Below, piece by piece: positions 1-27,725 of a stretch of 64,000 nt of DNA; position 1 is the stretch's first letter, and the number at the start of each line of letters is the position of its first letter. The DNA is taken from the NCBI RefSeq assembly GCF_004153685.1, contig NZ_SDQD01000002.1, forward strand, positions 868,001-932,000, written 5' to 3'. Source of the stretch: Pollutimonas harenae (GTDB taxonomy: Bacteria > Pseudomonadota > Gammaproteobacteria > Burkholderiales > Burkholderiaceae_B). A program made the position numbers and the translations under genes. The notes below the pieces were generated by a model. That model searched no databases and had not been told where the DNA came from. It worked only from the letters and a program-made list of their open reading frames with translations.

Positions 1-694
1 AAGGCATGATGCTCTCGCCCACAATGACCGCCGCCAGACCAATCACTATGGTGCCTATGCCCATTGAGATATCGGCGCCGCCCTGTGATTGAGCGAACAA
101 GGCTCCAGCCAGTGCACACAATGCATTGGAAATAGCCATGCCTGCCAGCACCCTGTTTCCGGTGGCAACGCCCTGCGAGCGAGCCATACGCGGATTCGAA
201 CCAGTAGCCCGCATCGCCAGACCGGCTTTGGTGGAAAAATACCAGTCGAGTGCAAACTTGATAATGATGACCAACACCAGCAGAAGCAGAGGACGAACGA
301 TGTAGTCGCTGATGCCCTCCGGCTGCAAGATGGTAAATACCGTAGGTTCGGTTATAAGCGGTACATTGGGGCGCCCCATGATGCGCAGATTGATGGAATA
401 CAACGCAATCATCATCAGAATGCTGGCCAGCAAATCCATGATCTTTAGCCTGACATTCAGCCATCCTGTGATCATGCCGGCAATTGCGCCGGCAAGGGCT
501 GCAACCAAGGTGGACGTAAACGGGTCCATGCCCATACTGATCAGCGTGGCGGCCACCGCCCCACCCAGAGGAAAGCTGCCGTCAACCGTCAGGTCGGGAA
601 AGCGCAGCACCCGGAAAGAAATAAATACCCCGAGCGCAACCAAGCCGAAGACCAGGCCAATTTCAAGCGCACCCCATAAAGAATAAATAGACAT
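1..694 (-). CDS. ABC transporter permease, TrpY-like (partial, cut by window edge)
   Basis: This reading frame stays open from an ATG at 692-694 to the left edge, giving about 231 residues with no stop; the C-terminus lies outside the window. It reads as a multi-pass inner-membrane permease of the branched-chain-amino-acid-like class, with an N-terminal LRFPDLTVDGSFPLGG motif typical of permeases paired with TrpX/DUF534 binding proteins. The binding-protein gene lies 103 nt upstream on the same strand, so the two form one importer operon, and an ATPase gene probably follows outside the window. The substrate is not readable from sequence; tryptophan or another aromatic compound is suggested only by family analogy. 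Confidence 0.88.
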   Translation of the reverse strand, partial: MSIYSLWGALEIGLVFGLVALGVFISFRVLRFPDLTVDGSFPLGGAVAATLISMGMDPFTSTLVAALAGAIAGMITGWLNVRLKIMDLLASILMMIALYSINLRIMGRPNVPLITEPTVFTILQPEGISDYIVRPLLLLVLVIIIKFALDWYFSTKAGLAMRATGSNPRMARSQGVATGNRVLAGMAISNALCALAGALFAQSQGGADISMGIGTIVIGLAAVIVGESIMP

Positions 695-721
695 TGTTCT
701 GATTCAGTGTAGCTAAAATAG

Positions 722-758
722 AAGCAGGCGGGCTGTGTAGGCAACAACCCGCCTGCTT
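722..758 (-). terminator. Intercistronic hairpin between binding-protein and permease genes
   Basis: An 11-bp perfect inverted repeat (arms AAGCAGGCGGG at 722-732 and CCCGCCTGCTT at 748-758) with a 15-nt loop lies between the binding-protein stop and the permease start. No long U-tract follows on the minus strand. It looks more like an mRNA-stabilising or partial attenuating stem that keeps binding-protein expression above permease expression than a full terminator. Confidence 0.6.
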
Positions 759-797
759 TAATCTGTGCGGCGATTTTAATCGGCAAGCACTAAGATT

Positions 798-1766
798 TTA
801 CTCGACAACCTGCGTGGCCGACTTGACGAAGTCTTCAGACAGCGAAATGCCCTGTTTTTCAGCAGCGCCCGGATTCACGTAGAGCTCAAGCTTGTCGCTG
901 GTTTCGGAAGGCAGGTCGCCCGGCTTTGCGCCTTTGAGAATCTTGATAACCATTTTGCCGGTCTGCAGGCCCAGGTCTTTGTAGTTGACACCCAGGGCGG
1001 CAATGGCTCCGCGCTTGACGCTATCAGTGTCGGAGGCAATCAAGGGAATATCAGCATCGTTGCCGACTTTAACCAGGGCCTCGTAGGCCGACACCACGTT
1101 GTTGTCGGTGTTTGTGTAGATGACGTCGACTTTGCCAACCAGGCTGCGTGCGGCCGCGCCCACATCTACTGTGCGTGCAGCAGTTGCTTCGACCAGCGTC
1201 ATGCCAGCCTCGGGCAGGAGCTTGCGCATCTGCTCGACGACAACAACCGAATTGGCTTCGCCAGGGTTGTACACCATACCCACGCGTTTACCTTCAGGTA
1301 CGACCTTCTTGATGAGATCGACTTGTTTTTCAAGGGCCAGGCTGTCGGAAACACCAGTGACATTGGTGCCCGAGGCCTCCATGGACGGCACCAACTGCGC
1401 CGCTACGGGATCAGTGACCGCCGAATAAACTACAGGTATGGTTTTGGTGGCGGCAACCACGGCCTGGGCCGATGGTGTGGCGATGGCGACAATGACGTCG
1501 GGATTGTCACCGACAAACTTGCGTGCTATTTGCCCCGCTATGGCGGTGTTGCCCTGCGCCGTCTGGAATTCCCAATCAAGCCCTTTGGCTTCGGTGTAAC
1601 CAGCTTCGGTGAGTGCCTGCAGGACACCATCGCGGATGGAGTCCAGGGCCGGATGCTCGACGATGGACGTGACTGCCACCGATTGCGCCATGACCGGCGT
1701 ATGAGCCAAGGCGCCCAGAATCGCCGCAGTGCCTAGAGCCAACTTGGCAGAGTTGCTAAACCTCAT
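798..1766 (-). CDS. ABC transporter substrate-binding protein, TrpX/DUF534 family
   Basis: A 322-residue periplasmic binding protein of the family that includes TrpX. A signal peptide ends at about residue 27 (APVMA-like end followed by QS), then a two-lobed type-I periplasmic fold with motifs such as VAIATPSAQA and VYSAVTDPVAA characteristic of this family. An AAGGAG ribosome site sits 7 nt before the ATG. It would capture the ligand for the permease encoded directly downstream. The ligand cannot be assigned: aromatic amino acids are known for TrpX, but most family members are uncharacterised. Confidence 0.88.
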   Translation of the reverse strand: MRFSNSAKLALGTAAILGALAHTPVMAQSVAVTSIVEHPALDSIRDGVLQALTEAGYTEAKGLDWEFQTAQGNTAIAGQIARKFVGDNPDVIVAIATPSAQAVVAATKTIPVVYSAVTDPVAAQLVPSMEASGTNVTGVSDSLALEKQVDLIKKVVPEGKRVGMVYNPGEANSVVVVEQMRKLLPEAGMTLVEATAARTVDVGAAARSLVGKVDVIYTNTDNNVVSAYEALVKVGNDADIPLIASDTDSVKRGAIAALGVNYKDLGLQTGKMVIKILKGAKPGDLPSETSDKLELYVNPGAAEKQGISLSEDFVKSATQVVE

Positions 1767-1911
1767 GGAATGCTCCTTAACGAATGACGGAAGGCACGAA
1801 GTTCGTGCCAGAGATGGGCGTTAGTCTAACTCGTTAAAGACCCAAATGCCTAAAGGGATATCCCTTTATTCGATACAAGCACATGGGGGCATGCTCAGTC
1901 GGTGTCTGCAG

Positions 1912-2715
1912 CTATACCGTCATTGATCGACCTGGTCTCTGGGATAACAACTCCCTCGCCCAGCGACGTCCCGGCAAACCGTATTTGGATTCCACATCTT
2001 CGGCGCGCAGCAGAAACTCGCGAGCCGTCACATCCAGCAAAGGCCCCTTGAAGGCAAGCACTATGCGATTGCCGGCATCGATCTCGGGCAGCTCCAGCAC
2101 CCGGCCATCAAAAGCCTCGCGGATATTCCGGATGTTGGGTGCAAAGCTGGCATGATCACCAAATAAATTTACCACCATGATGCCGGTGTCGGCCAGGCTG
2201 CGGAAACAGCCTTGGTAAAACTCCGGCGAGTCGCGCACAGGCCCCTGCGCGTGCGCATCATACAAATCAACCATGAGCGTTGTGCATCGCCCGATATTGC
2301 GACTTTCTTCGACCCAGCGGCCGGCATCGCAATGATCTATGCTGGATCGCTGCGATTCCGGCAAGCGGAAATAAGCACGGCACACGGCCGTGACAGCAGG
2401 ATTCCACTCGACAGTCACCACCGATGCCGAGGTGTACTTGAGCGTGTACCGGAGCAAAGAACCCGCACCCAGACCGAGAATACCTACCGTATCAGCCTTG
2501 GTAGGCTCCAGAAACAGCAACCAGGCCATCATTTGTTGCGTATAGGCCAGCACCAGCTCGGCTGGCTTGGCTATCTGCATTGCTCCCTGTACCCATTCAG
2601 TACCAAAGTGCAAATAGCGTATGCCGTCCAGCTCAGACAGGCTGGGCTCGTCGTCTTCCGACGGTCCGCTGAGCTCAAACACGTTCGAAGATCGCCGCAA
2701 TGCCCTGCCCACCAC
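1912..2715 (-). CDS. Spermidine-synthase-like methyltransferase-fold protein
   Basis: Up to 267 residues with a Rossmann core (VGILGLGAGSLLRY about residues 78-91, then VVTVEWNPAVTAVC), as in spermidine/spermine synthases and related SAM-binding proteins. Bordetella-type genomes carry such a protein annotated as spermidine synthase-like; an aminopropyltransferase activity is not proven by sequence. The start is ambiguous: the frame opens with GTG at 2715, right after an in-frame TAG and inside the thiolase gene, and a second GTG at 2682 overlaps the thiolase stop by only a few bases. The 2682 start would remove 11 residues. It is probably translationally coupled to the thiolase. Confidence 0.75.
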   Translation of the reverse strand: MVGRALRRSSNVFELSGPSEDDEPSLSELDGIRYLHFGTEWVQGAMQIAKPAELVLAYTQQMMAWLLFLEPTKADTVGILGLGAGSLLRYTLKYTSASVVTVEWNPAVTAVCRAYFRLPESQRSSIDHCDAGRWVEESRNIGRCTTLMVDLYDAHAQGPVRDSPEFYQGCFRSLADTGIMVVNLFGDHASFAPNIRNIREAFDGRVLELPEIDAGNRIVLAFKGPLLDVTAREFLLRAEDVESKYGLPGRRWARELLSQRPGRSMTV

Positions 2716-3856
2716 CTATGCACATAGTGACCAGCGCATACCTGCCCTGGATTCGGTTCAACTCGTGCAAAGCCTTGACGGTGATAATGGCTCCGGTGGC
2801 TCCTATGGGGTGACCAAGGCTGATGCCACTGCCGTTGGGGTTGACCTTGGCAGGGTCCATTTCAAGACCTTTGATCACAGCGCATGCTTGCGCCGCAAAA
2901 GCTTCATTGGCCTCAATCACGTCCATCTGGTCTATGCTCAGCCCAGCCTTTTCCAGTGCAATACGCGTAGCAGGCACCGGGCCTATGCCCATGTATTTAG
3001 GGTCAACGCCAGCATGGCCGTAAGAAATCAGCTTGGCCATAGGCGCCAATCCTCTGGCCTGGGCCTGGCGGGCTGTCATGAGCAGTACGGCTCCGGCGCC
3101 ATCGTTCAGGCCCGAGGCATTGCCCGCCGTGACCGTGCCGTTTTCTTTGAGAAAAACCGGCTTGAGCTTGTTGAAGTTCTCGGCTGTTGCGCCCATGCGC
3201 ACATGCTCGTCGGTATCGAACACCACCTCACCACGACGCGTTTTCTGCACGATGGGAACTATCTGTTCCTTGAAATAGCCTTGCGTGATCGCCGCTTCGG
3301 CGCGCTGGTGGGACAAGAGGGCCAGAGCATCCTGCTCTTCGCGACTGATGGAGTATTTCTTGGCCACGTTTTCGGCGGTCACACCCATGTGCGTGTTTTC
3401 GAAGGGATCAGCCAGAGCCCCCGTCATCATGTCGACCATGGCGCTATTGCCCATGCGCGCGCCCCAGCGATGCGCGGGAACACTATACGGTGCGCGGCTC
3501 ATGCTTTCAGCGCCACCAGCGATCGCCACCTCGACGTCTCCGAGCATGAGGGATTGGGCGGCTGACACAATGGCCTGCAAGCCAGACCCACATAGGCGGT
3601 TGACATTGAAAGCGGGTGTTTCATGAGTAACGCCGGCCTGCACCGATGCAACCCGTGATAGATACATATCGCGCGGTTCAGTATTGATGACATGACCAAA
3701 CACCACATGGCCGACATCCGCTGCGGGAACATTGCTGCGATCCAGAACGGCCCTGACAACCGTCGCACCCAAATCGCAAGGAGGTACATCTTTCAAGCCT
3801 CCACCAAAGTCTCCGATAGCCGTGCGGCAGGCTCCTACTACAACGACGTCTTCCAT
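2675..3856 (-). CDS. Acetyl-CoA acyltransferase (beta-ketothiolase)
   Basis: A 393-residue thiolase II, the normal family length. The acylated nucleophile is Cys89 in NRLCGSGLQA; the GHPIGATGA histidine motif and the second active cysteine in CIGGGQG are present near the C-terminus. It catalyses reversible condensation of acetyl-CoA with acyl-CoA, serving beta-oxidation, acetoacetyl-CoA formation or polyhydroxyalkanoate precursor supply. No PHA synthase or reductase gene is adjacent, so the pathway is open. The downstream spermidine-synthase-like frame overlaps its 3' end. Confidence 0.93.
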   Translation of the reverse strand: MEDVVVVGACRTAIGDFGGGLKDVPPCDLGATVVRAVLDRSNVPAADVGHVVFGHVINTEPRDMYLSRVASVQAGVTHETPAFNVNRLCGSGLQAIVSAAQSLMLGDVEVAIAGGAESMSRAPYSVPAHRWGARMGNSAMVDMMTGALADPFENTHMGVTAENVAKKYSISREEQDALALLSHQRAEAAITQGYFKEQIVPIVQKTRRGEVVFDTDEHVRMGATAENFNKLKPVFLKENGTVTAGNASGLNDGAGAVLLMTARQAQARGLAPMAKLISYGHAGVDPKYMGIGPVPATRIALEKAGLSIDQMDVIEANEAFAAQACAVIKGLEMDPAKVNPNGSGISLGHPIGATGAIITVKALHELNRIQGRYALVTMCIGGGQGIAAIFERV

Positions 3857-3935
3857 ATGTGGTCTCCGTGAATCTGAATTGAGAATTTACCCATTCATAT
3901 TACCGCAGCGCAGCATTTACATGCTTGTGCTGCAC

Positions 3936-3977
3936 AAAAAAAAAACGGCAAAGCGCGTGGCTTTGCCGTTTTTTTTT
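3936..3977 (-). terminator. Bidirectional intrinsic terminator
   Basis: A nine-base-pair stem (CGGCAAAGC, 3946-3954, pairing with 3960-3968) with a five-base loop is flanked by ten A on the left and nine T on the right. It is a textbook Rho-independent terminator in either direction. It lies 21 nt after the stop of the small minus-strand gene at 3998-4141 and would end that transcript before the thiolase operon. Confidence 0.92.
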
Positions 3978-3997
3978 CAGAATTCAATCAGGCTGGA

Positions 3998-4141
3998 TCA
4001 ATCCTGGGATTCTTTAGACTGGGCGGGCTGCTTTGCATCATCGGCGCGTTTTTCAACTTTATCGTCTGTTGTGCCAGGTGCTACCCAGTTAAGTGGTTCA
4101 ATTACGAAAGGCTGCTTTTTTGCAGTCGGTTTAGTTGCCAT
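3998..4141 (-). CDS. Small hypothetical protein, 47 residues
   Basis: A short ATG frame encoding 47 residues that start MATKPTAKKQPFVIEPLNW and end in a hydrophilic, charged tail (EKRADDAKQPAQSKESQD). An AAGGAG site lies 6 nt before the ATG, and a strong intrinsic terminator follows the stop, so the unit looks like a complete monocistronic gene. There is no signal peptide or membrane segment. The N-terminus is lysine-rich, the middle hydrophobic, and the tail probably disordered. I do not recognise the family. Confidence 0.72.
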   Translation of the reverse strand: MATKPTAKKQPFVIEPLNWVAPGTTDDKVEKRADDAKQPAQSKESQD

Positions 4142-4264
4142 GTTGAACTCCTTATTGCATTACAAAAGGCGCACCGCGCGCCTTCGTACTCTTTTAGGGT
4201 ACCCTATTGGCAGAAATAAATCCAATTTACTCAATAACTTACACATAAACATAACGGGAATCAC

Positions 4265-5053
4265 GTGAAGCTAGCAACATGGAACGTCAACTCGCTGAAA
4301 GTACGCCTGCCGCAAGTGCTGGACTGGCTGGAAAACTCACCTGTAGAGGCACTGTGCTTGCAGGAACTGAAACTGGCTGATGACAAGTTCCCTATCGATG
4401 CATTTACCGAGGTCGGATACCAGGCTTGCTGGGCCGGTCAGAAAACCTATAACGGGGTAGCCATCATCACGAAAACGGCGGGGACCGACATACAGCGCAA
4501 TCTGCCAAACTTCGAAGACCACCAACAACGCATTATTGCTACAACGCTACCCAGCCCGGCAGGTGATATCCGGGTGGTCAGCGCCTACTGTCCCAACGGG
4601 CAAGCAGTTGGCAGTGACAAGTACGAATACAAACTCAAGTGGTTTATGGCTTTGCAAGAGTGGTTGCGCCAAGAACTGGAGCGCTATCCCCGCCTGGCTG
4701 TTTTGGGTGACTATAACGTTGCTCCACATGACGAAGACGTACACGACCCCAAAAAATGGGAAGGCGACATATTGGTATCCGAGCCCGAGCGAGCCGCGTT
4801 CAATGCCTTGCTATCACTGGGATTCACCGACTCGTTCCGCGAGTTCGAGCAAGAGGATAAATCGTTTACCTGGTGGGACTACCGCCGCTTTGCTTTCCGC
4901 CGTAATGCGGGCCTGCGCATAGATCATGTTTTGTTATCAGACGCGTTAAAACGCTACTGCTCGGCATGCACCATCGACAAGAGCCCCAGAGGCAATGAGC
5001 AACCATCAGACCACACACCTGTGGTCGCAACGCTGGATTTCCAATGCGCCTGA
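4265..5053 (+). CDS. xthA: Exodeoxyribonuclease III
   Basis: A 262-residue member of the exonuclease III/AP endonuclease family. The metal-binding glutamate Glu34 sits in CLQELK; LGDYNVAPHDEDVHD carries the catalytic Asp/Asn pair and PSDHTPVVA the catalytic Asp-His near the end. It cleaves DNA at abasic sites and degrades 3' ends in base-excision repair. The start is GTG (4265-4267), immediately giving the conserved KLATWNVNSL beginning. The upstream ribosome site is weak (CGGGA). Confidence 0.95.
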   Translation: MKLATWNVNSLKVRLPQVLDWLENSPVEALCLQELKLADDKFPIDAFTEVGYQACWAGQKTYNGVAIITKTAGTDIQRNLPNFEDHQQRIIATTLPSPAGDIRVVSAYCPNGQAVGSDKYEYKLKWFMALQEWLRQELERYPRLAVLGDYNVAPHDEDVHDPKKWEGDILVSEPERAAFNALLSLGFTDSFREFEQEDKSFTWWDYRRFAFRRNAGLRIDHVLLSDALKRYCSACTIDKSPRGNEQPSDHTPVVATLDFQCA

Positions 5054-5126
5054 TGTTATTTACATTTTGATACCCGCCTACCCGTTTCTCTTGGTAATGT
5101 AACGCAAACTTCACAGGATGAATCGT

Positions 5127-5789
5127 ATGGCGCAGCGGGTGTTGGGTTTGGGGCGTGCGAGGCGCGTATCGGGTTATTTGAAAAAAATGGTTCCGGGTGC
5201 TTTTCTTCAGGAGTTCTTCGCCCAGCCAGGCATCGTAGGTGCTATCTGTCCCAGCTCCCCCTTCCTCGCCCACCGCATGGCCCGGGAAGTAAGCCATATC
5301 AAAGACGGGTTGATTATCGAGTTGGGGCCGGGGACGGGCGTCGTAACCAAGGCCCTGCTTAAACAAGGGGTTGCTCCGGAGCGTCTGCTGGTACTTGAGT
5401 ATTCAAATCGATTCGTGCAGCGTCTGCGCCGACAATTTCCCCTGGTCAACATCGTGCACGGCAATGCGGCCGATTTGTGCAGGATTGTTCCCGCCGGCAC
5501 CAAAGTGTCCGCCATTGTCTCCAGTCTGCCTTTATGCTCCTTGCCTGAACCGCTCATGCAGTCAATCGTGCAACAATGGCGGGAACTACTACATGACTCG
5601 GGCGTAGCTGTACAGTTCACGTACAATCTGCACAGACCTGCTTGGCACAAGCATGTGCAGGGCGTGCAAACCGGCTCCAGCATAGTTTGGGGCAATCTGC
5701 CTCCCGCCCGGGTATCCACTTTCTCGTTTCACACTCACAAGCTTTCTTCACCGCACCATGAGCACCCACCCGCAGAGCACCCCGGTTGA
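5127..5789 (+). CDS. SAM-dependent methyltransferase, phospholipid N-methyltransferase-like
   Basis: About 220 residues. The Rossmann glycine motif IIELGPGTGVVT is followed by a conserved acidic residue in LLVLEYSNRF and a SSLPLCSLP segment, a pattern shared by phosphatidylethanolamine N-methyltransferases of the PmtA type and rRNA dimethylase relatives. The N-terminus (SGYLKKMVPGAFLQEFFAQPGI) fits the phospholipid group. ATG 5127 is chosen because AGGA lies 8 nt upstream; an ATG at 5118 would add three residues. The stop overlaps the next frame by 32 nt. The true substrate is uncertain. Confidence 0.75.
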   Translation: MAQRVLGLGRARRVSGYLKKMVPGAFLQEFFAQPGIVGAICPSSPFLAHRMAREVSHIKDGLIIELGPGTGVVTKALLKQGVAPERLLVLEYSNRFVQRLRRQFPLVNIVHGNAADLCRIVPAGTKVSAIVSSLPLCSLPEPLMQSIVQQWRELLHDSGVAVQFTYNLHRPAWHKHVQGVQTGSSIVWGNLPPARVSTFSFHTHKLSSPHHEHPPAEHPG

Positions 5790-6093
5790 TACCCTTGAAC
5801 ACGGCCTGGTTCTTGATGTTGTCATTGAAGACCTGCAGTTCAGGGCTTACGTGGTCATCAGTGAGCCCGACATCAACCTGGTCGCCGACTTCGTGCCGGC
5901 GGAGCAATTCGAACAGGATGGCGACGTACACGTCACCGCCATCAGCCATCCCGATGAAGCACGCACTCAAATTCAGGATATCGCCTTCAATATGAATCTG
6001 GGCGATGCAGCCGTGTTTTTGTGTGGCAACGAGCAGATATACCGGCACACGCTCGAAGAGCTTGGACAGCAAGCTGCCAGCCAGCTCAACTAA
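5758..6093 (+). CDS. Hypothetical acidic protein, 111 residues
   Basis: An acidic, probably cytosolic protein of 111 residues with no recognised domain, signal peptide or membrane segment. It has strong G/C at third codon positions like its neighbours, which supports real coding. It starts inside the 3' end of the methyltransferase gene and ends 79 nt before gmk. There is no clear ribosome site, so translation is probably coupled to the upstream gene. A 185-codon frame on the opposite strand covers the same bases but looks like a shadow. Confidence 0.62.
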   Translation: MSTHPQSTPVDTLEHGLVLDVVIEDLQFRAYVVISEPDINLVADFVPAEQFEQDGDVHVTAISHPDEARTQIQDIAFNMNLGDAAVFLCGNEQIYRHTLEELGQQAASQLN

Positions 6094-6172
6094 GGTGTCG
6101 TTTACCGGCGCTAGCCACTGATACCGTTCTTTTGCTATTCTTGCCGCTTGCGCATATTTTGTAACTCTTATC

Positions 6173-6808
6173 ATGTCGTCTTATTCTGGCAATATTTTTA
6201 TGGTGGTAGCCCCCAGCGGCGCGGGCAAATCCAGCCTGGTCAATGCCCTGCTGGCCGAAGATCCCACTCTAGTGCTCTCCATATCGTGCACAACCCGCGA
6301 CCCTCGCCCAGGCGAAGAAGCCGATAAACACTACCGCTTTGTCAGCCATGATCAATTCAAGGCACTACAGCAACAGAAAGCCTTGCTGGAATGGGCCGAG
6401 GTACACGGCAACTACTACGGCACGCCCCGCGACCGCATCGATCTGGCGCTAGCTCAAGGCCAGGACGTTTTGCTCGAAATTGATTGGCAAGGCGCGCGCC
6501 AGGTACGTGAGCATTTTCCCCAGGCAGTCGGCATTTTTATATTGCCTCCATCAATCCAGGCCCTGGAATCTCGCCTGACCAAACGCGGGCAAGATGCACC
6601 ACAGGTCATTTCTCGCCGATTACTGGCCGCCGGCAGCGAGATGTCACACGCCTCAGAGTGCCAATATGTTATTATTAATCAAGAATTTAGCCTTGCCTTA
6701 CAGCAATTGGCTCAAATTGTTGCCGCCACACGCTTGCGCTATGCCACACAAGCGCAGCGCCACGCAGAACTCTTTTCACAATTGGGTATCAGCAAAACTG
6801 TTGCCTGA
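6173..6808 (+). CDS. gmk: Guanylate kinase
   Basis: A 211-residue guanylate kinase of normal length. The P-loop APSGAGKS lies at residues 13-20; the GMP-binding stretch [11 protein letters not shown] and the [13 protein letters not shown] motif follow. It phosphorylates GMP or dGMP to the diphosphate using ATP. Together with rpoZ and spoT downstream it forms the conserved proteobacterial gmk-rpoZ-spoT string, linking guanine nucleotide supply with (p)ppGpp metabolism. Confidence 0.97.
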
Positions 6809-6839
6809 TCCCTCTAACTACTTAATCCATAGGTAAAAA

Positions 6840-7043
6840 ATGGCTCGCATTACTGTTGAAGACTGCCTGGCGCAGATACCCAACCGCTTTAACCTGACTC
6901 TGGCCGCTACTTATCGCGCACGCGAACTGGCACAGGGCCACGAACCTCGCCTCGACAGCAAAGACAAGCCCACCGTCACCGCCCTACGTGAAATAGCCGC
7001 TGGTGTAACCGGCCTGGAAATGCTGCGCAAAGTTCCAACCTGA
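6840..7043 (+). CDS. rpoZ: DNA-directed RNA polymerase omega subunit
   Basis: A 67-residue omega subunit starting [19 protein letters not shown], the standard betaproteobacterial form. The conserved ATYRARELA helix is present. Omega assists folding of the beta' subunit and forms part of a (p)ppGpp site on RNA polymerase. It lies 31 nt after gmk and 15 nt before spoT on the same strand. Confidence 0.97.
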
Positions 7044-7058
7044 TCATCCGGGGCGGCT

Positions 7059-9329
7059 ATGGCGTTTTCTGTCCTCCGTGGTGCTTCCTCCGGCCTGCTG
7101 GCCGCACTCAAGAAGGGTCCACGGCTGCGCCGACGCAAGTCGGCCAAGAAACAAGGACAGCTTCCCGCGCCACATGAAGCACCCAACACCATAGCCTCGC
7201 TCGACCCGCTGACAAAAATCGTCAGCCAATACCTGAAACCCAAAGAAGTCGAACGCATCAAAGAGGCCTATCGCTTTGCCGATCAGGCTCATCTGGGTCA
7301 GTTTCGCGCCAGCGGCGAACCCTATATATCCCACCCCATCACGGTCACTGAAATCTGCGCAGGCTGGAAGCTTGATGCCGACTCCCTGATGGCGGCGCTA
7401 TTGCACGACGTCATAGAAGACCAGGATGTCAGCAAACAGGAGCTGGCCGAAAAATTCGGTGCCGACGTGTCGGAAATCGTCGATGGCCTGTCCAAGCTCG
7501 ACAGGCTCGAATTTGCCACCAAGGCTGAGCAGCAAGCTGAAAGCTTCCGCAAGATGCTGCTGGCCATGGCGCGCGATGTACGCGTCATTCTTATCAAGCT
7601 GGCAGATCGCCTGCACAATATGCGCACCTTGGGCGCAGTAGCGCCCGAAAAACGTCGGCGCATTGCACATGAAACCCTGGAAATCTACACGCCCATCGCG
7701 CACCGTCTGGGCTTGAATGCCCTGTTTCGCGAACTGCAGGACCTCTGCTTTCAGGCAATTCATCCCAACCGCTATCAGGTGCTGCACAAGGCCATGATGG
7801 CCGCCCGCGGTAATCGGCGCGAAGTCCTGGGCAAAATCACCGATGCAGTGCGTGTTGCCCTGCCCGCTGCCGGCATCGAAGCCGAAGTAAGCGGTCGAGA
7901 AAAATCGCTCTATAGCATCTACACCAAGATGGTCGAGCAAAAGAAGAGCTTTTCCGACGTGCTCGACATCTACGGTTTTCGCGTCATCGTGCATACGCTG
8001 CCTGAATGCTACCTGGCTCTGGGCACACTGCATCAGCTGTACCGTCCGGTACCCGGAAAATTCAAGGACTATATTGCCATTCCCAAACTGAATGGCTACC
8101 AGTCACTGCACACAACGCTGGTGGGGCCTTATGGTACCCCAGTCGAGTTCCAGTTCCGCACGCGCGACATGGACCACATCGCTGAAGAAGGCGTCGCCTC
8201 GCATTGGCTATACAAAGACGACGATGTCTCCTTGAACGATTTACAAAAGCGCACGCACCAATGGCTGCAGTCATTGCTCGACATACAAAGCCAGACTGGC
8301 GATTCAGGTGAGTTTCTGGAGCACGTCAAGGTCGATCTGTTTCCCGATGCCGTCTACGTGTTCACGCCACAAGGCAAGATTATTTCTCTGCCGCGTGGTG
8401 CCACACCAGTGGACTTCGCCTATACCATCCACACGGACATCGGCAATCAGGCCGTCGCATCAAAAATCAATGGTGAGTTCGCGCCATTGCGCACAGAGCT
8501 CAAAAGCGGCGACGCGGTCGAAATCATTACCTCGCCCGCCTCCAGGCCCAGTACCCAGTGGCTTAATTATGTCCGTACCGGGCGGGCCCGCTCTGAAATC
8601 CGGCATTATTTACGTACCGTCAAATACGAAGAATCAGTGGCTTTCGGCCAACGCCTGCTCAACCAGGCCTTCAAGCAATTGAACCTGGAGCGGCCCGCCG
8701 AAGATGATCCCGAATGGGAAAAACTCGCCAAAGGATCTGGCGCCAGCTCTCGCGACGAAATTCTGGCTGACATCGGACTGGGTAAACGTCTGGCCGCTGT
8801 TGTGGCCCGACGCTTTGCCCCTGAGAATCCGATTCTTGCCACGACAGCGGCCGCTGTAGACGAAATCACGTCATCCAGCAGCGCACCCATCGTCATACAC
8901 GGCAACGAGGGTCAGGCCGTTCAGCTGGCACCCTGCTGCGGCCCCTTGCCTGGCGATGCCATTATCGGCGGCATACGCCTGGGGCATGGCCTGGTCGTGC
9001 ACATGGAAGAATGCGCGGTTGCCCAGCGACAGCGCGCCCGTGAGCCGGAGCGCTGGATTCCCGTCGTGTGGGATGCCAATACCGCAAGACACCTCTCGAC
9101 CCGTCTTGACGTTACCGTGATCAACGAGCGCGGCGTGCTCGGACGCCTGGCCGCTGAAATCACGGCTGCCGAATCCAACATCATGCATTTGAGCATGCCC
9201 GACGATGCCGCGACCACCGGCCTGTTGCATCTTACGGTTCAAGTCGACAATCGCAAGCATCTGGCCCAGGTCATCCGGGCCATACGGCATGTGCCGCAGG
9301 TCCAGAAGATCGTCCGGGTCAAGGGTTAA
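7059..9329 (+). CDS. spoT: Bifunctional (p)ppGpp synthetase/hydrolase
   Basis: A 756-residue RelA/SpoT-family protein. The N-terminal HD hydrolase domain keeps its His-Asp pair (residues 116-117 in LLHDVIEDQD). The synthetase domain follows (SLYSIYTKM...YGFRVIV), then a TGS domain (YVFTPQGKIISLPRGATPVDF), a zinc-finger/helical region with CCGP, and a C-terminal ACT domain. Because HD is intact it should both make and degrade the alarmone. The first 45 residues are basic and poorly conserved, so an internal start is possible; ATG 7059 is the first start after rpoZ. Confidence 0.94.
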   Translation: MAFSVLRGASSGLLAALKKGPRLRRRKSAKKQGQLPAPHEAPNTIASLDPLTKIVSQYLKPKEVERIKEAYRFADQAHLGQFRASGEPYISHPITVTEICAGWKLDADSLMAALLHDVIEDQDVSKQELAEKFGADVSEIVDGLSKLDRLEFATKAEQQAESFRKMLLAMARDVRVILIKLADRLHNMRTLGAVAPEKRRRIAHETLEIYTPIAHRLGLNALFRELQDLCFQAIHPNRYQVLHKAMMAARGNRREVLGKITDAVRVALPAAGIEAEVSGREKSLYSIYTKMVEQKKSFSDVLDIYGFRVIVHTLPECYLALGTLHQLYRPVPGKFKDYIAIPKLNGYQSLHTTLVGPYGTPVEFQFRTRDMDHIAEEGVASHWLYKDDDVSLNDLQKRTHQWLQSLLDIQSQTGDSGEFLEHVKVDLFPDAVYVFTPQGKIISLPRGATPVDFAYTIHTDIGNQAVASKINGEFAPLRTELKSGDAVEIITSPASRPSTQWLNYVRTGRARSEIRHYLRTVKYEESVAFGQRLLNQAFKQLNLERPAEDDPEWEKLAKGSGASSRDEILADIGLGKRLAAVVARRFAPENPILATTAAAVDEITSSSSAPIVIHGNEGQAVQLAPCCGPLPGDAIIGGIRLGHGLVVHMEECAVAQRQRAREPERWIPVVWDANTARHLSTRLDVTVINERGVLGRLAAEITAAESNIMHLSMPDDAATTGLLHLTVQVDNRKHLAQVIRAIRHVPQVQKIVRVKG

Positions 9330-9350
9330 CGCATTGCACAGCCGGCCCGC

Positions 9351-10208
9351 TCAAGGGGCAAAGGCATTGATGAAAATGGCCGGATCGACACGGGTGCTGT
9401 TCAGGCTTACATTCCAGTGCAAATGTGGCCCTGTTGCGCGGCCTGTTGCGCCGACCTGCCCGATCACCTGACCCCGACTGACCTCTTGTCCTGGCTCTAC
9501 CTGAAAGCGGGACAAGTGGCAGTACATGGTAATGAAACCCTGCCCGTGATCAATAAAAATGGTTTTACCATTAAAAAAGTAGTCAGCAACAATGGTCACG
9601 ACCCCGTCGGCTGGCGCCTTGATCGGTGTGCCAGCCGGCACGGCAAAGTCCAATCCTGAATGTGGGTTGCGCTCTTCTCCGTTAAAAAAACGTCTTAAGC
9701 CGAAAGGACTGGAAAGACGCCCATTGACGGGCTTATCCAATGACACATTGCTGGGCCCCGTGGAGCGAAAATTTCCGTAGGCCTGGATTTGCTCTTTGTA
9801 TTCGCGTTCGAAACGTTTGACCTGCGCCGGATCAGGGTTGACATGGCTCTTGTTCTTAAGCTTGATGTGCTGCGATTTATACTTTTTGGTGCCTACCTGA
9901 AATACCAGCTTGCGCTTGCCCTGGCTGCTTTCCACTTGTATAGGCTGCGGACCAGCTTTGGTTTTCAAATCTATGCCCACCACGGCGATCCAGGCATCAT
10001 TGCTATCGCGCAAGACCATGACCCGATCGTCTTTGTAGAAAACACGGGGCGCTTCAGTGTCCGGCCCAAGATCGACCACGGCAACGCCACCGGGAACAGG
10101 GTGATTCAATAGGCGACTGATATAGCCTTGTGCGCTAACCAGCGCCGGCAGCAGCAAACCAAGTGCCACAATCAATAAGTAACGACAACGCATGAGGATG
10201 GATTGCAT
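9351..10208 (-). CDS. Secreted M23-family peptidoglycan endopeptidase
   Basis: About 285 residues with a signal peptide (hydrophobic LLIVALGLLLPALVSA, cleavage before QG). A Peptidase_M23_N-like beta domain follows, then a LytM/M23 zinc peptidase domain. Metal ligands are visible in HSGLD and GPHLHWN, so the enzyme should be active on peptide cross-links in the periplasm. The frame extends to a TTG at 10250, but ATG 10208 or ATG 10193 gives a normal signal peptide; no start has a good ribosome site. It is convergent with spoT, with 21 nt between stops. Confidence 0.88.
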   Translation of the reverse strand: MQSILMRCRYLLIVALGLLLPALVSAQGYISRLLNHPVPGGVAVVDLGPDTEAPRVFYKDDRVMVLRDSNDAWIAVVGIDLKTKAGPQPIQVESSQGKRKLVFQVGTKKYKSQHIKLKNKSHVNPDPAQVKRFEREYKEQIQAYGNFRSTGPSNVSLDKPVNGRLSSPFGLRRFFNGEERNPHSGLDFAVPAGTPIKAPADGVVTIVADYFFNGKTIFIDHGQGFITMYCHLSRFQVEPGQEVSRGQVIGQVGATGRATGPHLHWNVSLNSTRVDPAIFINAFAP

Positions 10209-10280
10209 AAGTAAAGGGCTTAGCGTATATCCTGCGGCGAAGACAATCAAGGTGAATGACTAGGAATAACCCCTAAATTG

Positions 10281-10292
10281 CCTGTATACAGG
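10281..10292. promoter_or_regulatory. Palindromic operator candidate upstream of the TRAP operon
   Basis: A perfect 12-bp palindrome CCTGTATACAGG lies 104 nt before the TRAP binding-protein start. The TGTATACA core resembles operators bound by GntR-family repressors of the FadR/VanR group, which often control TRAP transporters for organic acids. A TACAAT element at 10315-10320 could be the -10 hexamer, but no good -35 is seen. No such regulator is encoded nearby in the window. Confidence 0.45.
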
Positions 10293-10395
10293 GCGCACCT
10301 GATCAAACGCACACTACAATCCTGCTGAACAATAATTTCAGGAAGCAGCGCTCATTGCAGCTGCTTCCAAAAACACGTTAACCAAAGGATTTCTC

Positions 10396-11370
10396 ATGAA
10401 GAAGACGTTAGCCTTGTTGACCGCGGCAGGTGCCGCTCTGGCTCTGAATGCACAGGCCGCCACCAAGTGGGATCTACCCAGCGCATACCCGGCATCCAAT
10501 CTGCACACTCAGAATCTTGAACAGTTCGTCAAAGACGTCAATGAACTGTCCAAGGGTGAGCTTCAGATCACGCTGCACAACAATGCCTCTTTGTATAAAG
10601 CGCCTGAAATCAAGCGCGCAGTTCAGGGCAACCAGGCACAGATCGGTGAAATCCTGCTCACCAACTACGCCAACGAAGATCCCATATACGCACTTGACGG
10701 CCTGCCCTTTCTGGCAACCGGCTACGACGCCGCCTGGAAGCTCTACCAGGCTCAAAAAGACCTGCTCAACAAAAAACTTGAATCACAAGGCATGACCTTG
10801 CTGTACACCGTGGCCTGGCCGCCCCAAGGCATTTTCGCCAACAAAGACATCAAAACGGTGAAAGACCTCGAAGGCGTCAAATGGCGCGCCTATAGCCCCG
10901 TTACCGCCCGCATTGCCGAACTGGTGGGTGCCCAGCCCGTCACTATTCAGCAGTCCGAGCTGGCCCAGGCTATGGCCACCGGCGTTGTCGATGCCTTCAT
11001 GACCTCGGGTTCTACCGGCTGGGACACCAAGACCTACGAGTACATTAAAAAATTCTACGACACCCAGGCCTGGTTGCCCAAGAACGCAGTCATCGTCAAT
11101 AAAAAGGCCTTCGACAGCCTCGACGACGCCAGCAAGAAAGCGCTGCTCGAAGCCGGTGCCGCCGCTGAAAAACGCGGCTGGGCATTGTCCAAGGAAAAAA
11201 CTCAGTGGTACCTGGACAAGCTGGCTGAGAACGGCATGGAGATCATCAAGCCCAGCGCCGAGCTCATGAGCGGTCTGGATAAAGTCGGCGACACCATGCT
11301 AACAGAATGGATCAAGCGTGCTGGTCCTGACGGCCAGCAGGTCATCGACAAATTCCAGGCTGCCAAATAA
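10396..11370 (+). CDS. TRAP transporter substrate-binding protein, DctP family
   Basis: A 324-residue periplasmic binding protein with a signal peptide ending ALNAQA (about residue 21). The family's substrate-carboxylate arginine is in VKWRAYSPVTARIAELVGAQP, followed by the QQSELAQAMATGVVDAF segment typical of DctP proteins. It captures an organic acid for the QM permeases encoded next. An AAAGGA ribosome site precedes the ATG. The exact ligand is unknown; the family takes C4-dicarboxylates, sugar acids, keto acids and others. Confidence 0.93.
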   Translation: MKKTLALLTAAGAALALNAQAATKWDLPSAYPASNLHTQNLEQFVKDVNELSKGELQITLHNNASLYKAPEIKRAVQGNQAQIGEILLTNYANEDPIYALDGLPFLATGYDAAWKLYQAQKDLLNKKLESQGMTLLYTVAWPPQGIFANKDIKTVKDLEGVKWRAYSPVTARIAELVGAQPVTIQQSELAQAMATGVVDAFMTSGSTGWDTKTYEYIKKFYDTQAWLPKNAVIVNKKAFDSLDDASKKALLEAGAAAEKRGWALSKEKTQWYLDKLAENGMEIIKPSAELMSGLDKVGDTMLTEWIKRAGPDGQQVIDKFQAAK

Positions 11371-22266: not shown

Positions 22267-23685
22267 ATGCCAAAAAATACTTCTTCCGATCTGCAAAACC
22301 AGTTTGCCAACAAAGCGCAAGCCTGGTCCGCCCGATTCTCCGAACCCGTCTCCGAGCTGGTCAAACGCTATACAGCGTCCATCAATTTCGAACAGCGCCT
22401 GGCTCCGTTCGACATTCAGGGCTCACTGGCACATGCCGACATGCTCGCTGCCATAGGCATCATCAGCGCCGACGACAATGCTGCCATCCAGCAAGGCATG
22501 GCCCAAATTCTGAAAGAAATCGAATCGAACACGCTTGCCTGGTCCATTGATCTCGAAGACGTACACCTGAATATAGAAAAGCGTCTGGTCGAACTCATTG
22601 GTGATGCGGGAAAACGGTTGCACACCGGCCGCTCCCGCAACGACCAGGTAGCCACCGACATCCGGCTGTGGTTGCGTCACGAAATTGACCTGGCCATCGA
22701 TTTGCTGCAACAGTTGCGCCACAAGTTGGCCACCCTGGCACTCGAGCACGCCGAAACCATCCTGCCTGGCTTTACCCATCTGCAAGTGGCCCAGCCCGTA
22801 ACCTTCGGCCACCATCTGCTGGCCTATGCAGAGATGTTCGGTCGCGATGCAGAGCGCCTGGCCGACTGCCGTAAGCGGGTCAACCGCCTGCCGCTGGGTG
22901 CCGCCGCACTGGCAGGCACGTCCTATCCCATCGACCGCGAGCGCGTTGCCGCCACCCTGGGCTTTGACGAAGTCTGCCGCAACTCGCTAGACGCCGTATC
23001 CGACCGCGATTTTGCCATAGAATTTTGCGCCTCAGCCGCACTGATCATGACGCATATTTCACGCTTGTCCGAAGAGCTTGTTTTGTGGATGAGCCCACGC
23101 GTGGGCTTTATAGATTTGGCCGACCGCTTTTGCACTGGCAGCTCGATCATGCCGCAAAAGAAAAACCCCGATGTTCCTGAACTGGCACGCGGCAAAACCG
23201 GGCGCGTCAATGGCCACCTTATCGCCCTGCTTACGCTCATGAAAGGTCAGCCCTTGGCCTACAACAAAGACAACCAGGAAGACAAAGAAGGTTTGTTCGA
23301 CGCGGCCGACACCATCCGCGATACGCTGACCATTTTCGTCGACATGGTGGGCGGCATCAAGGTCAAACCCGAAGCCATGCGCGCAGCCGCCCTGCAAGGT
23401 TTTGCCACGGCCACCGACCTGGCCGACTATCTCGTCAAGAAAGGCATACCGTTTCGCGATGCGCACGAAACCGTGGCCCACGCGGTGCGTGCCTGCGAAG
23501 ATCAAGGCTGCGATCTGGCCGATCTGTCTCTTGAGCAGCTGCAGGCTTTTCACCCATCGATCGAGCAAGACGTGTTCAGCGTGCTGACGCTCGAAGGTTC
23601 GGTCGCCGCGCGCAAGCACATAGGCGGCACTGCACCCGAGCGTGTCAAGATCGAAGCCCAGCGCGTGCTGGACTCAGGCCGCTGA
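22267..23685 (+). CDS. argH: Argininosuccinate lyase
   Basis: A 472-residue lyase of the fumarase/aspartase superfamily, normal length. The signature [12 protein letters not shown] is intact, as are the upstream HTGRSRNDQ and [13 protein letters not shown] motifs that contribute substrate and catalytic residues. It splits argininosuccinate into arginine and fumarate, the last step of arginine synthesis. It is divergent from the MscS-type gene and convergent with the small Nif11-like gene. There is no visible Shine-Dalgarno sequence. Confidence 0.97.
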
Positions 23686-23721
23686 TCGTCCAGGCGGCTT
23701 TCTTACAGTCATAGGCCTGGC

Positions 23722-23931
23722 CTATTCCGTCGCATCGGACAGGGTCAGTGCACTTTGCAAATACAACGCCAGTTCGCTCCGGTCGACGGCAATCTGCAGG
23801 CGCTGCGCGGAATCAAATACGATGTCTATTGCCTGCTCAAGCGATTGAGCAGCATACAGTCTATCGAGTAGCAAAGAGTCCTTGCTGGGCAAGCGCTGCA
23901 ATGTTTCAAAGGTGTGGGCGGAAATACTCAT
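23722..23931 (-). CDS. Small Nif11-like protein, 69 residues
   Basis: A short helical protein with the pattern of the Nif11-like domain: an N-terminal MS..F..L, an acidic-Leu helix, AAQSLEQAIDI in the middle and DRSELALYL near the end. There is no Gly-Gly leader site and no cysteine/serine-rich core after the domain, so it does not look like a typical RiPP precursor. ATG 23931 is chosen; the frame starts 15 nt earlier at 23946. It is transcribed divergently from the large SARP-type regulator gene across a 170-bp gap and may be its target. The family call is a by-eye resemblance. Confidence 0.62.
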   Translation of the reverse strand: MSISAHTFETLQRLPSKDSLLLDRLYAAQSLEQAIDIVFDSAQRLQIAVDRSELALYLQSALTLSDATE

Positions 23932-24029
23932 ACGTGTCTCGCACATTATTACAAGGTAAACAACAACAAGGCGAGACCCGGACTAACCCTGGCGCCGTTC
24001 AGCCTCGCACGTTATGCTTTGCCAATAGT

Positions 24030-24057
24030 TTCAACAAAAGAAATTATTTTGTATTAA
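24030..24057 (+). promoter_or_regulatory. Candidate promoter of the SARP-type regulator gene
   Basis: In an AT-rich stretch, TTCAAC (24030-24035) and TATTAA (24052-24057) are spaced by 16 nt, a plausible -35/-10 pair reading toward the regulator. Initiation near 24064 would put the heptamer repeat at 24072-24089 just downstream of the start point. Confidence 0.4.
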
Positions 24058-24071
24058 TTTGAGCAAATTAC

Positions 24072-24089
24072 CGTAAGCTGATCGTAAGC
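24072..24089 (+). promoter_or_regulatory. Heptamer direct repeat with SARP-type spacing
   Basis: CGTAAGC occurs twice (24072-24078 and 24083-24089) separated by four bases, an exact 11-bp period. SARP regulators are known to bind direct heptamer repeats with this geometry. The repeat ends 12 nt before the ATG of the gene for a SARP-type protein, which suggests autoregulation. If the upstream promoter is right, binding here would repress rather than activate. Confidence 0.5.
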
Positions 24090-24101
24090 CAGACCACGCT
24101 C

Positions 24102-27100
24102 ATGAATTCGACTTTCCCAGAACCCTCCTTGTCCATCCAGCTATTGGGGGAAGCTAAGCTGATGCGGAATCAGCAGCCGTTAAGCGGAAAGCTTTACGAC
24201 AAAGTTATCGCCCTGCTCGCTTACCTGATCGTCGAATCCGGCCAAAGTCATACGCGCGAACGCCTGGCAATGTTGTTATGGCCTGCATTCTCCTCTGACA
24301 TCGCCCGGGGCAACCTGCGACAGACCCTGTATTACTTGCGCCAAATATTTCACACGGATGCGGCGTCCTTGCTGTCCTCCAACCGGAACACCGTGCAATT
24401 CCTGCATGACGAATCGCGTTGTCGGATCGACCTGAAACGATTTACCCAGCCGGCACCGATTTGTCTCCAATGTGCAACAACATCTGTGTCGACACCGTGC
24501 GAAACCTGCCTGAACCATCTTGCAATGCGCGTTGACGCCTACCAGGGTGAGTTTCTGGCCGGCCTGTCGCTGACCGATGCGCCCGACTTTGATATTTGGC
24601 TGGAGGCACAGCGCTTGAGCCTGCGAGGACAGGCTTTTGCTCTGGCTGAACAGCTGAGCCACGCCCACGAGACGCAAGGACGGCTCGACACGGCGCTGAG
24701 CTACGCCTTGCGCTGCATCGAGCTCGAACCCTGGAACGAGTCGGGCCATCGCCAGCACATGCGTCTGCTGGCAAGCAAGGGTCAACATGGCGCGGCCCAA
24801 GCCTTTTACGACGCTTACAGCAACAAGCTTGAGCGCGACTTGAACGTCGAACCCGACCAAAGTACACAAGCTCTTTTCGAATCCATTCATAAGGGTGGGC
24901 TGCAGGTAGGAGCACCACTCTCAAGTACGCTGACGCCAACCATTCCCCGGGTCGAAACAGGGCGCAGGCAGGCTACTATTTTATGTTGTCATGTTGGCTT
25001 GCCTCCGAATTTCGGGACAAAGGGGCCGGAACAATTGGCGGCGCCCCGTTCGGTATGCGCATCGGTGCTACGTCGCTATGCGGGCCATATCGCCTTGGGG
25101 CAAGGCGGCTACATTTATGCTTATACGGGATATCCGCAAGCATCGGAACATGCGGGGCTGCAGGCTGTACAAGCGGCTCTTGAGCTGCAGGCATGCCTGA
25201 TGCCGCATTATCGGCTTCGGATTGGCATTCACACCGGCATCATTGTGACGGGGTTCGACCCCGCCCTTCCAGACATCATCGGAAATGTATCCGCCATAGC
25301 TTGGCAACTGTGCCGACGTATGCAACGAACAGGCATAGTCATCAGCGAAAGCACCCGCCGCCTGGTGCATGGCCGGTTTCGGCTACAGACCTTGAAGCCG
25401 ATGCATGTCAAAGAAGACTCGGCAGATGCAAATGATATGCACATACCGGTTTATAAGCTGATCGGCCCATCGCAGACCAGTGGCCGCGTTACAGTGCCAC
25501 ATGCCGGCCTGATCGGAAGACAACAAGAACTTCAGCGCCTCAAGCGGCTCTGGCGACTTGCTTTGTCCGGCCAGGCACAGTTCCTGGCCCTGCGGGGCGA
25601 AGCAGGGCTGGGCAAAACCCGCATCGCGCGCGCACTGATCGAGCAGACTGATCCCACAAACTCGATCGTGCGCCACCTGCACTGCTACTCGGAACACCAG
25701 CACACACCGTTTTATCCCATCATCTCGATGTTTGAAGCAACACTGGGGTTTACGGACGACGACACCGTCATATATCGACGCGAGAAACTGAATCAGCATC
25801 TTGTTCATCACCACCCAGCCATTGCATCCCGCGCCTTTCCTATCCTGATGGCCATGCTTTCCATAGCACCGCCCCAGGCCCCGGTACTGCCGCCGCGTCA
25901 GCGCAAACAGCAAACCCTGGACATGCTGCTCACACTGCTGGACAGCATAGCAATGCGTGGCACGCTGCTCTTGATCATCGAGGATGCGCAGTGGCTGGAC
26001 GTGACCAGCCTTCAGTTACTCGAACGGCTTGTTCATCGGCAAAACCCCGTCGCGCTGTTTACCCTGATCACAGCCCGCTGCGAGTTCACGCCGGCCTGGC
26101 TGCAAGCGAACTCGGTGCTCGAGCTTCAACCCTTAAAAGACAAACACATCGCTCGCTTGGCGCAAGCGGCGAGCAGATCATCCCTGTCCAGCCAGTTAAT
26201 TGGGCACATTATTCAGCGGGCAGACGGCATACCTTTATATGCCGAAGAAATGGCACAGCTTTCTTCCCACTCAGTCCACGACGCCATACCCGCCTCACTA
26301 CAGTATTTGCTTCGCGTCCGGCTTGAAGCCGTCCCGCATGCGCGCCGACTCTTGCAGCTGGCCGCTACTATCGGCCGCAAATTCGGACACGATTTGCTGC
26401 AGCGTGTCAGTGCCCTCGACAACGAAAAACTCGACGCCATCCTGCACGAATTGACCGAGGCCCGGCTTATAGAGCTGATTGAGCCGCAAGACGCCGTTTT
26501 CCAGTTTCGCCATGCCCTCTTGCAGGAAGCGGCCTATACCTCCCAGGTTCAAGCCGACATGCAGCAGGCCCATCTGCAAGTGGCCACCATGCTCAGCACG
26601 CACTATGCCCAGCGGACCGCTCAGCAGCCTGGTGAAATAGCACGGCATTACACGGCGGCGGACGATGCCGAAGCCGCCCTGCCCTGGTGGCTGGCAGCGG
26701 GCCGCAAAGCCTTGCGTGTATCTGCCAACGCCGAAGCCAGAGATTATCTGCAAACGGGGCTGGATCTTGTCGCAAAACTTCCCCATACCCCGGAGCGCAA
26801 GGCCATGGAACGCGAATTCCTGCTTCCTCTGGGCCAAGCCTTGCTTTTGTTGCGCGGCTACGGCTCCGAAGATGCAGTAGCCGTCTATGACCGCGCTCTG
26901 ACGCTGGACGAGGCTAGCGTGTCGCCGCGTCAGCGATTCGAAATCCTGTGGGGGCAATGGATGGTTTCCAGTTCCCGCCCTGGGTCCGGCTTCAGGCATT
27001 CATGGGATATCACCCAGCAATTGTTGCAACTGGCCCGCGATAGCGGCGACGATGAACTCCTGGTGCAGGCCTATTCAGCCGCCGCCAACATCACGCTATG

Positions 27101-27725
27101 GCGCAATCAGCTCGATGATGCGTGCCGCTATGCCCGGGCCGCCATCGGTCATCCGACCGCCACGACCGGCAGCACCATCGAAGGACTGGACCCACGCGTC
27201 ACCAGTCTCGCCCATCTGTCCTGGGCCTATTGGCGTTTGGAGCAGGTCAGTGATGCCTTGGCTGTCAGCCGCCAATCTGTAAAACTGGCGCAATCACGAA
27301 ACGCTCCCGACACCCTTTGCTTTGCCCTGGCGTTTGCCGCTATGCTGCACCGTTTTTTGGGGCAAACCGACTCGATGGCCAGGCTGGCGCAGCAAATCCG
27401 ACAGGCGGCCGACTCTCATCAATTGGTGCTATGGCGCGGCATCGGCGACATGCTGCTGGGCTGGAAGCAGGCTCATGACGGCCAGGAAGAAGGCTTGATC
27501 ACGCTGAAGGCGTGCGTCCAGGGCGTAAAGCAAATCATGCCTGGTGTCGCCGTCATGTTCATCCACGCTCAGGCAGAAGCCTATGGTTTTCTGGGCCGTC
27601 ACAAAGAACAGCTGCGTATCATCGATGAGGGTCTTCAAACGGCGCAGCAAGTGCATGAGGGTTTTTTCAATCACCTGCTCGAGCAATTACGCCATCAATG
27701 TCCGGCGTATCAAATACAGCAATAG
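24102..27725 (+). CDS. Large SARP-type regulator: winged helix, BTAD, degenerate cyclase, AAA ATPase, TPR-like repeats
   Basis: 1207 residues. Residues about 8-105 form an OmpR/SARP-like winged helix; about 140-265 form a BTAD helical domain ([13 protein letters not shown] ... [16 protein letters not shown]). Between them is a CX2C-X8-CX2C cluster (Cys121, 124, 133, 136). Residues about 287-430 match a class III cyclase fold, but the two metal-binding aspartates are replaced by His297 and Gln334, so it should not make cyclic nucleotide. An AAA/NB-ARC-like ATPase follows with Walker A GEAGLGKT (499-506) and Walker B LIIEDAQW (Asp628). The C-terminal 400 residues are helical, TPR-like. It probably senses a ligand or partner through the C-terminus and controls transcription by ATP-driven switching. 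The 3' end overlaps rlmD tail-to-tail by 59 nt. Confidence 0.87.

Follow-up and report, generated by a model that had tools for sequence, protein, structure and literature searches.

A conserved SARP-like tandem repeat as a predicted activator site between a SARP/TOMM-cyclase hybrid regulator gene and a divergent leader-like gene in Alcaligenaceae

The window, i.e., the whole 64,000-nucleotide stretch of DNA that was analyzed, belongs by kinship to the Alcaligenaceae, and its setting, judged by the flanking genes and the seven proteins scanned, is not the actinomycete antibiotic cluster in which SARP genes usually lie. Two divergent genes, coding for a small protein of 69 amino acids (aa) and a large regulator of 1207 aa, lie back to back (Table 1), flanked by argH, a 23S-methyltransferase-like gene and other open reading frames (ORFs); a 74-aa alternative reading of the small gene begins at position 23946. 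Between the two genes the heptamer CGTAAGC occurs twice, with a gap of 4 bp and a period of 11 bp, and the repeat ends 12 nt ahead of the ATG of the 1207-codon ORF. These coordinates agree with the original prediction, in which the repeat was taken for a site with SARP spacing through which a SARP-type regulator controls its own gene and possibly that of its small neighbor.

Table 1. Features of the locus (positions of the window) and the observations attached to them
Feature	Position	Strand	Remarks
Divergent small gene, 69 aa	23722..23931	-	ATG at 23931; leader-like, without double glycine and without core
-10-like TCAAAT of the putative leftward promoter	24057..24062	-	6/6 columns invariant; distance to repeat the same in 6/6
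Promoter-proximal half-site (GCTTACG on the minus strand)	24072..24078	-	5/7 columns invariant in six loci
Promoter-distal half-site (GCTTACG on the minus strand), 11 bp off	24083..24089	-	5/7 columns invariant in six loci
Regulator, 1207 aa: winged helix and BTAD, cyclase-like stretch, AAA ATPase, TPR-like C-terminal part	24102..27725	+	Pfam; TIGR03903 below cut-off
SARP domain of the regulator, residues 1-272	24102..24917	+	Model pLDDT 90.2; AfsR/EmbR fold

Seven proteins of the window were scanned against Pfam, and the regulator matched BTAD (1e-14) and AAA_16 (5.1e-18), with a cyclase-like stretch (1.6e-5) and, over the winged helix, a weak match to Trans_reg_C. The model of residues 1 to 272 was closest to AfsR (Z = 18.9) and EmbR (Z = 17.9) over 243 to 246 residues (Foldseek E = 3e-10), the next unrelated fold having a Z score of 12.8. 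As modeled, the N terminus is folded like AfsR/EmbR, a winged helix followed by BTAD, which is the SARP architecture, and the claim that a SARP-type regulator stands beside the repeat was thus borne out by both Pfam and fold. Like AfsR, the large SARP of Streptomyces coelicolor, the regulator carries ATPase and TPR-like parts behind this domain; in contrast to AfsR, it has a cyclase-like stretch added between BTAD and ATPase. Residues W74, R87, and R94 of AfsR, which contact phosphates, aligned with W60, R73, and R80 of the regulator, whereas the base-reading residues T88 and R92 were replaced by Q74 and Y78. Residues 271 to 1192 matched TIGR03903 (TOMM kinase/cyclase fusions) from model position 269 onward (4.8e-105; 352.6 bits versus a curated cut-off of 705.75). 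The part behind the SARP domain is thus like that of these fusions, but with a score under the cut-off and an N-terminal SARP domain instead of a kinase the regulator is not a TIGR03903 member.

The length of 69 aa and the start of the small protein were kept in five loci, among which the gene differed mainly at codon position 3. The protein had no Pfam match (PF07862 was not reached), and NCBIfam gave no match in the five orthologues; assignment to Nif11 by direct match was rejected, and the kinship runs only via genome G129. A profile made from the five rows found matches in 10 of the 268 genomes of the family, the five loci included, and the best matches outside these fell on the leader portions of three genes arranged in tandem in G129 (1.2e-14, 4.4e-12, and 3.1e-11). 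These three genes had E values of 0.0012, 2.2e-7, and 5e-7 against TIGR03798 (19.0, 31.0, and 29.9 bits; cut-off, 32.3). The small gene is, by descent and as judged from these matches, kin to the Nif11-type leaders of RiPP precursors, but it matches neither of the two leader models. The three G129 precursors continue with LAGVAGG and a core, whereas the protein of the window stops just short of there, and in all five orthologues the protein ended after 69 aa without a double glycine or core. TIGR03797 was over the cut-off in G129, G233, and G190 and not in G000, G001, G208, G209, and G210. Since the protein ends before the double glycine and TIGR03797 does not exceed the cut-off in the host genomes, the small gene looks like a leader gene without a core or an exporter. 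In G129, an NHLP export system (L157, 107-9087), with TIGR03794, TIGR03796, and TIGR03797 over the cut-off, lies beside the three tandem Nif11-like precursors.

When the 155-bp gap was shuffled with dinucleotides preserved, 148 of 20,000 shuffles (0.74%) contained an exact lag-11 heptamer repeat, close to the earlier estimate of about one such gap in a hundred. Because the 64-kb window contains four exact lag-11 heptamer repeats in all, the exact repeat taken alone is weak evidence, a one-in-a-hundred curiosity. CGTAAGCN4CGTAAGC occurred exactly only once in the 3.37-Mb genome, and with two mismatches allowed there were 20 further sites, versus 28 for the reversed-pattern control.

Orthologous loci were compared between the window and five other genomes of the family (G001, G209, G208, G210, and G190; G209 is the same contig as Pusillimonas noertemannii DSM 10065), whose regulators were 53 to 77% identical in protein sequence to that of the window (77% in G001, 63% in G209, 56% in G210, and 53% in G190; 59% over residues 5 to 679 for the truncated G208 regulator). 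Each of the six orthologous loci that the family yielded had two heptamers 11 bp apart. CGTAAGC was found twice in the window, G209, G208, and G210; G001 had the deviating half-site CGTAAAC together with CGTAAGC, and G190 had CGTGAAC in both copies. That the word in G190 was changed alike in both places is what would be expected from a protein reading both words alike. The spacers between the heptamers varied among the loci, and in the six-way alignment 10 of the 14 heptamer columns were invariant, compared to 0 of 4 spacer columns, 0 of the 12 columns past the repeat, and 16 of the 110 columns from 23947 to 24056. In the lag test, which covered lags 7 to 22, the 7-column pair identity of the window group stood at 0.98 for lag 11, no other lag exceeding 0.64, and the lag-11 score was reached by none of 300 column shuffles. 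Owing to this conservation we judge the repeat to be real, with the appearance of a conserved SARP-like docking site; alignment of the orthologues, proposed at the outset as the check, spoke for the repeat and its SARP spacing. A chance repeat without function, which the shuffled gaps and the other repeats of the window would allow for, is extremely improbable in view of the pair being kept in 6/6 loci next to variable spacers and flanks and of the like change of both G190 words. G208 has a shortened regulator, a 688-aa ORF that stops within the ATPase region (L107, 7445-9511); the methyltransferase-like gene still lies downstream, and the operator is kept.

Read on the minus strand, all six loci had (C/T)T(T/C)ACGN, 4 nt, the same again, 8 nt, and TCAAAT, which amounts to CTTACGN-N4-CTTACGN-N8-TCAAAT with TTCACGG as the words of G190; this pattern and the spacing patterns of the paralogues given below were composed after viewing the alignments. 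TCAAAT, the putative -10 hexamer, and its distance to the repeat (8 bp, or 9 bp counted from GCTTACG) were invariant in the six loci. According to the available part of PMC10936776, the direct repeats of SARP promoters are spaced at 11 or 22 bp, with 8 bp between the 3' repeat and the -10 box, and the afs box of AfsR is centered at -29.5; the available part of PMC10972967 gives spacers of usually 4 to 15 nt between SARP heptamers. The afs box and the site in the window are alike in consisting of two direct repeats 11 bp apart near a poor -10, which in the window is a putative one (PMC10936776, same part). With TCAAAT set at -12 to -7 by assumption, the heptamers of the window would occupy -39 to -33 and -28 to -22, and the GTTCA of the G190 words lines up with the GTT(T/C)A of the AfsR repeat. 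The G190 regulator has R at position 78, and at the base read by AfsR R92 the G190 words carry T, as against C in most of the others; this covariation comes down to one change in an assumed register and is a hint, to which the G001 half-site is an exception.

Because TCAAAT stands at a fixed distance on the minus strand and there is no room for a -10 box to the right, the site would face leftward, and the divergent small gene should be the one that is activated. Previously named only as a possible second target, this gene thus becomes the expected one. Transcription would start leftward near 24050, leaving about 120 nt untranslated ahead of the small gene. As a -10 box TCAAAT is mediocre, agreeing with the sigma-70 consensus at four of six positions, and a consensus promoter scan of the minus strand of 23650-24200 reported no promoter. 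Activation of the regulator's own gene from the repeat was rejected, since only 12 nt (4 nt in G210) separate the repeat from the start codon. We chose the start codons ourselves, the GTG of G190 being uncertain; a start further downstream is unlikely because it would cut the fold, in which L14, L15, and G16 of the first strand region were invariant in 14 regulator sequences. With respect to the regulator's own gene, a repressor site is about the most that the repeat could be. Of the regulatory reading with which we began, the SARP-like site beside a SARP protein stood, while autoregulation as its main point did not; as far as the alignments tell, the repeat is on firmer ground than before, but its direction had been misread.

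The site might instead serve the regulator's own gene only, as an autorepressor operator, with TCAAAT belonging to something else. Its nearness to the start codon in the orthologues would suit such an operator, as would its presence in G190, where the small gene is absent. A pure repressor site would, however, have no use for an invariant TCAAAT kept at constant distance on its far side (6/6), and the layout is the same as that of the tssA-side sites described below; we regard an operator of this kind as unlikely. As to a promoter for the regulator itself, one weak rightward match was found at 24019-24047, where 0.6 was expected. The element TTATGCTT at 24012-24019 was conserved within the gap (5/8 columns invariant in six loci) and may be part of the regulator's own promoter. 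Searching 23600-24300 against Rfam gave no RNA element above the gathering score.

CGTRARCN4CGTRARC occurred without mismatch once per genome in six genomes, always at the regulator locus. The composite operator ATTTGA-N9-CGTRARC-N4-CGTRARC, searched with one mismatch allowed and found with none used, was present in 6 of the 268 family genomes, exactly the six with an orthologue, and the reversed control was absent from all 268; two genomes of the same genus (G002 and G003) had neither regulator nor site. As the site is found in exactly the orthologue-bearing genomes and once in each, it goes with the regulator and is local. With one mismatch allowed, CGTRARCN4CGTRARC counts did not exceed the control in five of the six genomes, and G190 had 17 sites, the exact one included, versus 15 for the control; from these counts we see no regulon.

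The genome of the window has a second such regulator, 27 to 29% identical and divergent from type VI secretion genes. We examined 49 homologues chosen from the matches, with short BTAD proteins and fragments omitted, and submitted 37 of them in five groups to the lag test, the other 12 being ungrouped or from groups of fewer than four. Lag 11 was the maximum in three of the five groups, i.e., those of the window, the type VI secretion paralogues, and g4a, and subfamilies g32 and g4b gave no lag-11 signal. The type VI secretion group comprised 10 rows, in all of which the tssA neighborship rests on the alike start of the divergent ORF, and in its long intergenic region lag 11 alone stood out in two places, on the regulator side (0.84, versus at most 0.57 at other lags; 0/300 shuffles) and on the tssA side (0.74, versus at most 0.51; 0/300 shuffles). 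Toward tssA, the tssA-side site reads TCAA(C/T)(A/G)G-N4-TNAACGN-N8 or N9-TA(A/G)NAT in 10/10 rows, five with N8 and five with N9. Group g4a (eight closely related rows) gave a weak signal, its score being reached by 3/300 shuffles at lag 11 and 61/300 over all lags, and had (T/C)AAAC(G/A)N-N4-TAAACGG-N8-CATTAT directed at the regulator itself. In the window, type VI secretion, and g4a groups, the distance from the end of the core ACG to the hexamer is 9 or 10 bp. By Pfam, the type VI genes of one locus run include ImpA/VasJ, VipA, and VipB; at L104 the paralogue (6990-10490, plus strand) faces away from type VI secretion genes (250-6654, minus strand), and L003, L031, and L112 are arranged likewise.

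Another tandem binder, such as a PhoB/OmpR-type response regulator, might control the regulator or the small gene through the repeat. Pho boxes of such response regulators are built of 7 + 4 bp units and share the 11-bp layout, and the winged helix of SARPs is itself of the OmpR type, in keeping with the weak Trans_reg_C match. A global box would recur, though, and the composite site was confined to 6/268 genomes with one copy each, while the paralogues have different words at the same period; a binder of this type is accordingly a good deal less likely than even the autorepressor operator.

We consider it probable that the adjacent regulator uses 24057-24089 as a SARP-type activator site, acting leftward, because of the conservation with its paired word change, the co-occurrence with the regulator, the distance of TCAAAT, the SARP fold, and the layout at the paralogues. 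Two protomers of the 1207-aa protein, dimerized through the SARP domain, would sit side by side on the heptamers, one per helical turn, and the bound regulator would help RNA polymerase to use TCAAAT leftward, so that the 69-aa gene would be switched on via its leader of some 120 nt. Occupancy 12 to 30 nt before the regulator's start codon would probably lower the regulator's own expression as well (autorepression). The regulator as the binder, the direction of activation, the start site, the autorepression, and any signal sensed by the ATPase/C-terminal part are what we infer from these comparisons. This part, with the cyclase-like stretch, may sense a nucleotide, phosphorylation, or the leader-like peptide. 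Weighing against this activator site are the 4/6 match of TCAAAT, the minus-strand scan, the deviating G001 half-site, the silence of g32 and g4b, the weak signal of g4a, the loss of T88 and R92, the spacing patterns having been composed with the alignments in view, the absence of the small gene as divergent ORF in G190, and the retention of the operator in G208 despite the truncated regulator. As the divergent ORF of G190 is a different one, the target is not constant; that ORF (L106, reverse complement, 4757-8098) codes for a 1113-aa protein with NPDVA-like repeats.

The SARP operators that we found described are from Streptomyces (available parts of PMC10972967 and PMC10936776), and literature searches for BTAD with type VI secretion, for Gram-negative, betaproteobacterial, or Alcaligenaceae SARPs, and for Nif11 with SARP/AfsR gave no study among the matches listed. 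Most likely, a betaproteobacterial SARP/TOMM-cyclase hybrid here acts through an operator of SARP-like logic on a leader-like gene that has no core; the hybrid differs from AfsR in its betaproteobacterial host, its predicted leader-like target next door, and the lack of a visible regulon. A SARP-like box could be traced by comparative genomics in Alcaligenaceae, in the same register and with different words across subfamilies, including one next to type VI secretion genes, which offers testable operators for large regulators for which the literature searches found no study.

Eight order-level homologues were inspected over 300 nt (the G520 row begins inside the gene). One exact lag-11 pair was found (G455), 6-of-7 pairs were also present in G425b, and the other six had none; one exact pair among eight rows is near chance. 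The G455 pair, CGTGAAA-N4-CGTGAAA, lies 139 nt upstream of the start of a 30% identical regulator (L179) and is near the G190 word. No relative of the small gene was present in the eight loci. In G425 (L196, 191-11646), a 36% identical regulator follows, in the same orientation, an NHLP-type exporter-like ORF that is below the cut-offs, a Nif11 precursor (PF07862, 28.6 bits versus a cut-off of 23.8) with double glycine and short core, and, judged by reading the sequence, an adenylating-enzyme-like ORF. By its gene content, this run ties the regulator type to Nif11 leaders. As for the TOMM kinase/cyclase fusions, published relatives are located next to NHLP-type precursors accompanied by "a large, Ser/Thr kinase" (available part of PMC2887384). 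The TOMM kinase/cyclase-type module is thus linked to leader peptides at the locus of the window, in the G425 run, and in these published kinase-accompanied precursors. It is conceivable, albeit doubtful, that a RiPP leader has here become an intracellular signal, the coreless Nif11-type leader, whose gene the hybrid would activate, binding the TOMM-type cyclase-ATPase module of its own regulator and tuning it, in a closed two-gene feedback loop without a natural product. Similarly speculative is the broader idea that such cyclase-ATPase modules recognize Nif11/NHLP leaders and so link the amount of precursor to transcription, and that Gram-negative SARPs drive systems including type VI secretion via 11-bp boxes. 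Weaker relatives of the small protein were seen in G190 and G191 (L158, about 7271-7453, and L162, about 6771-6947), outside recognized exporter clusters.
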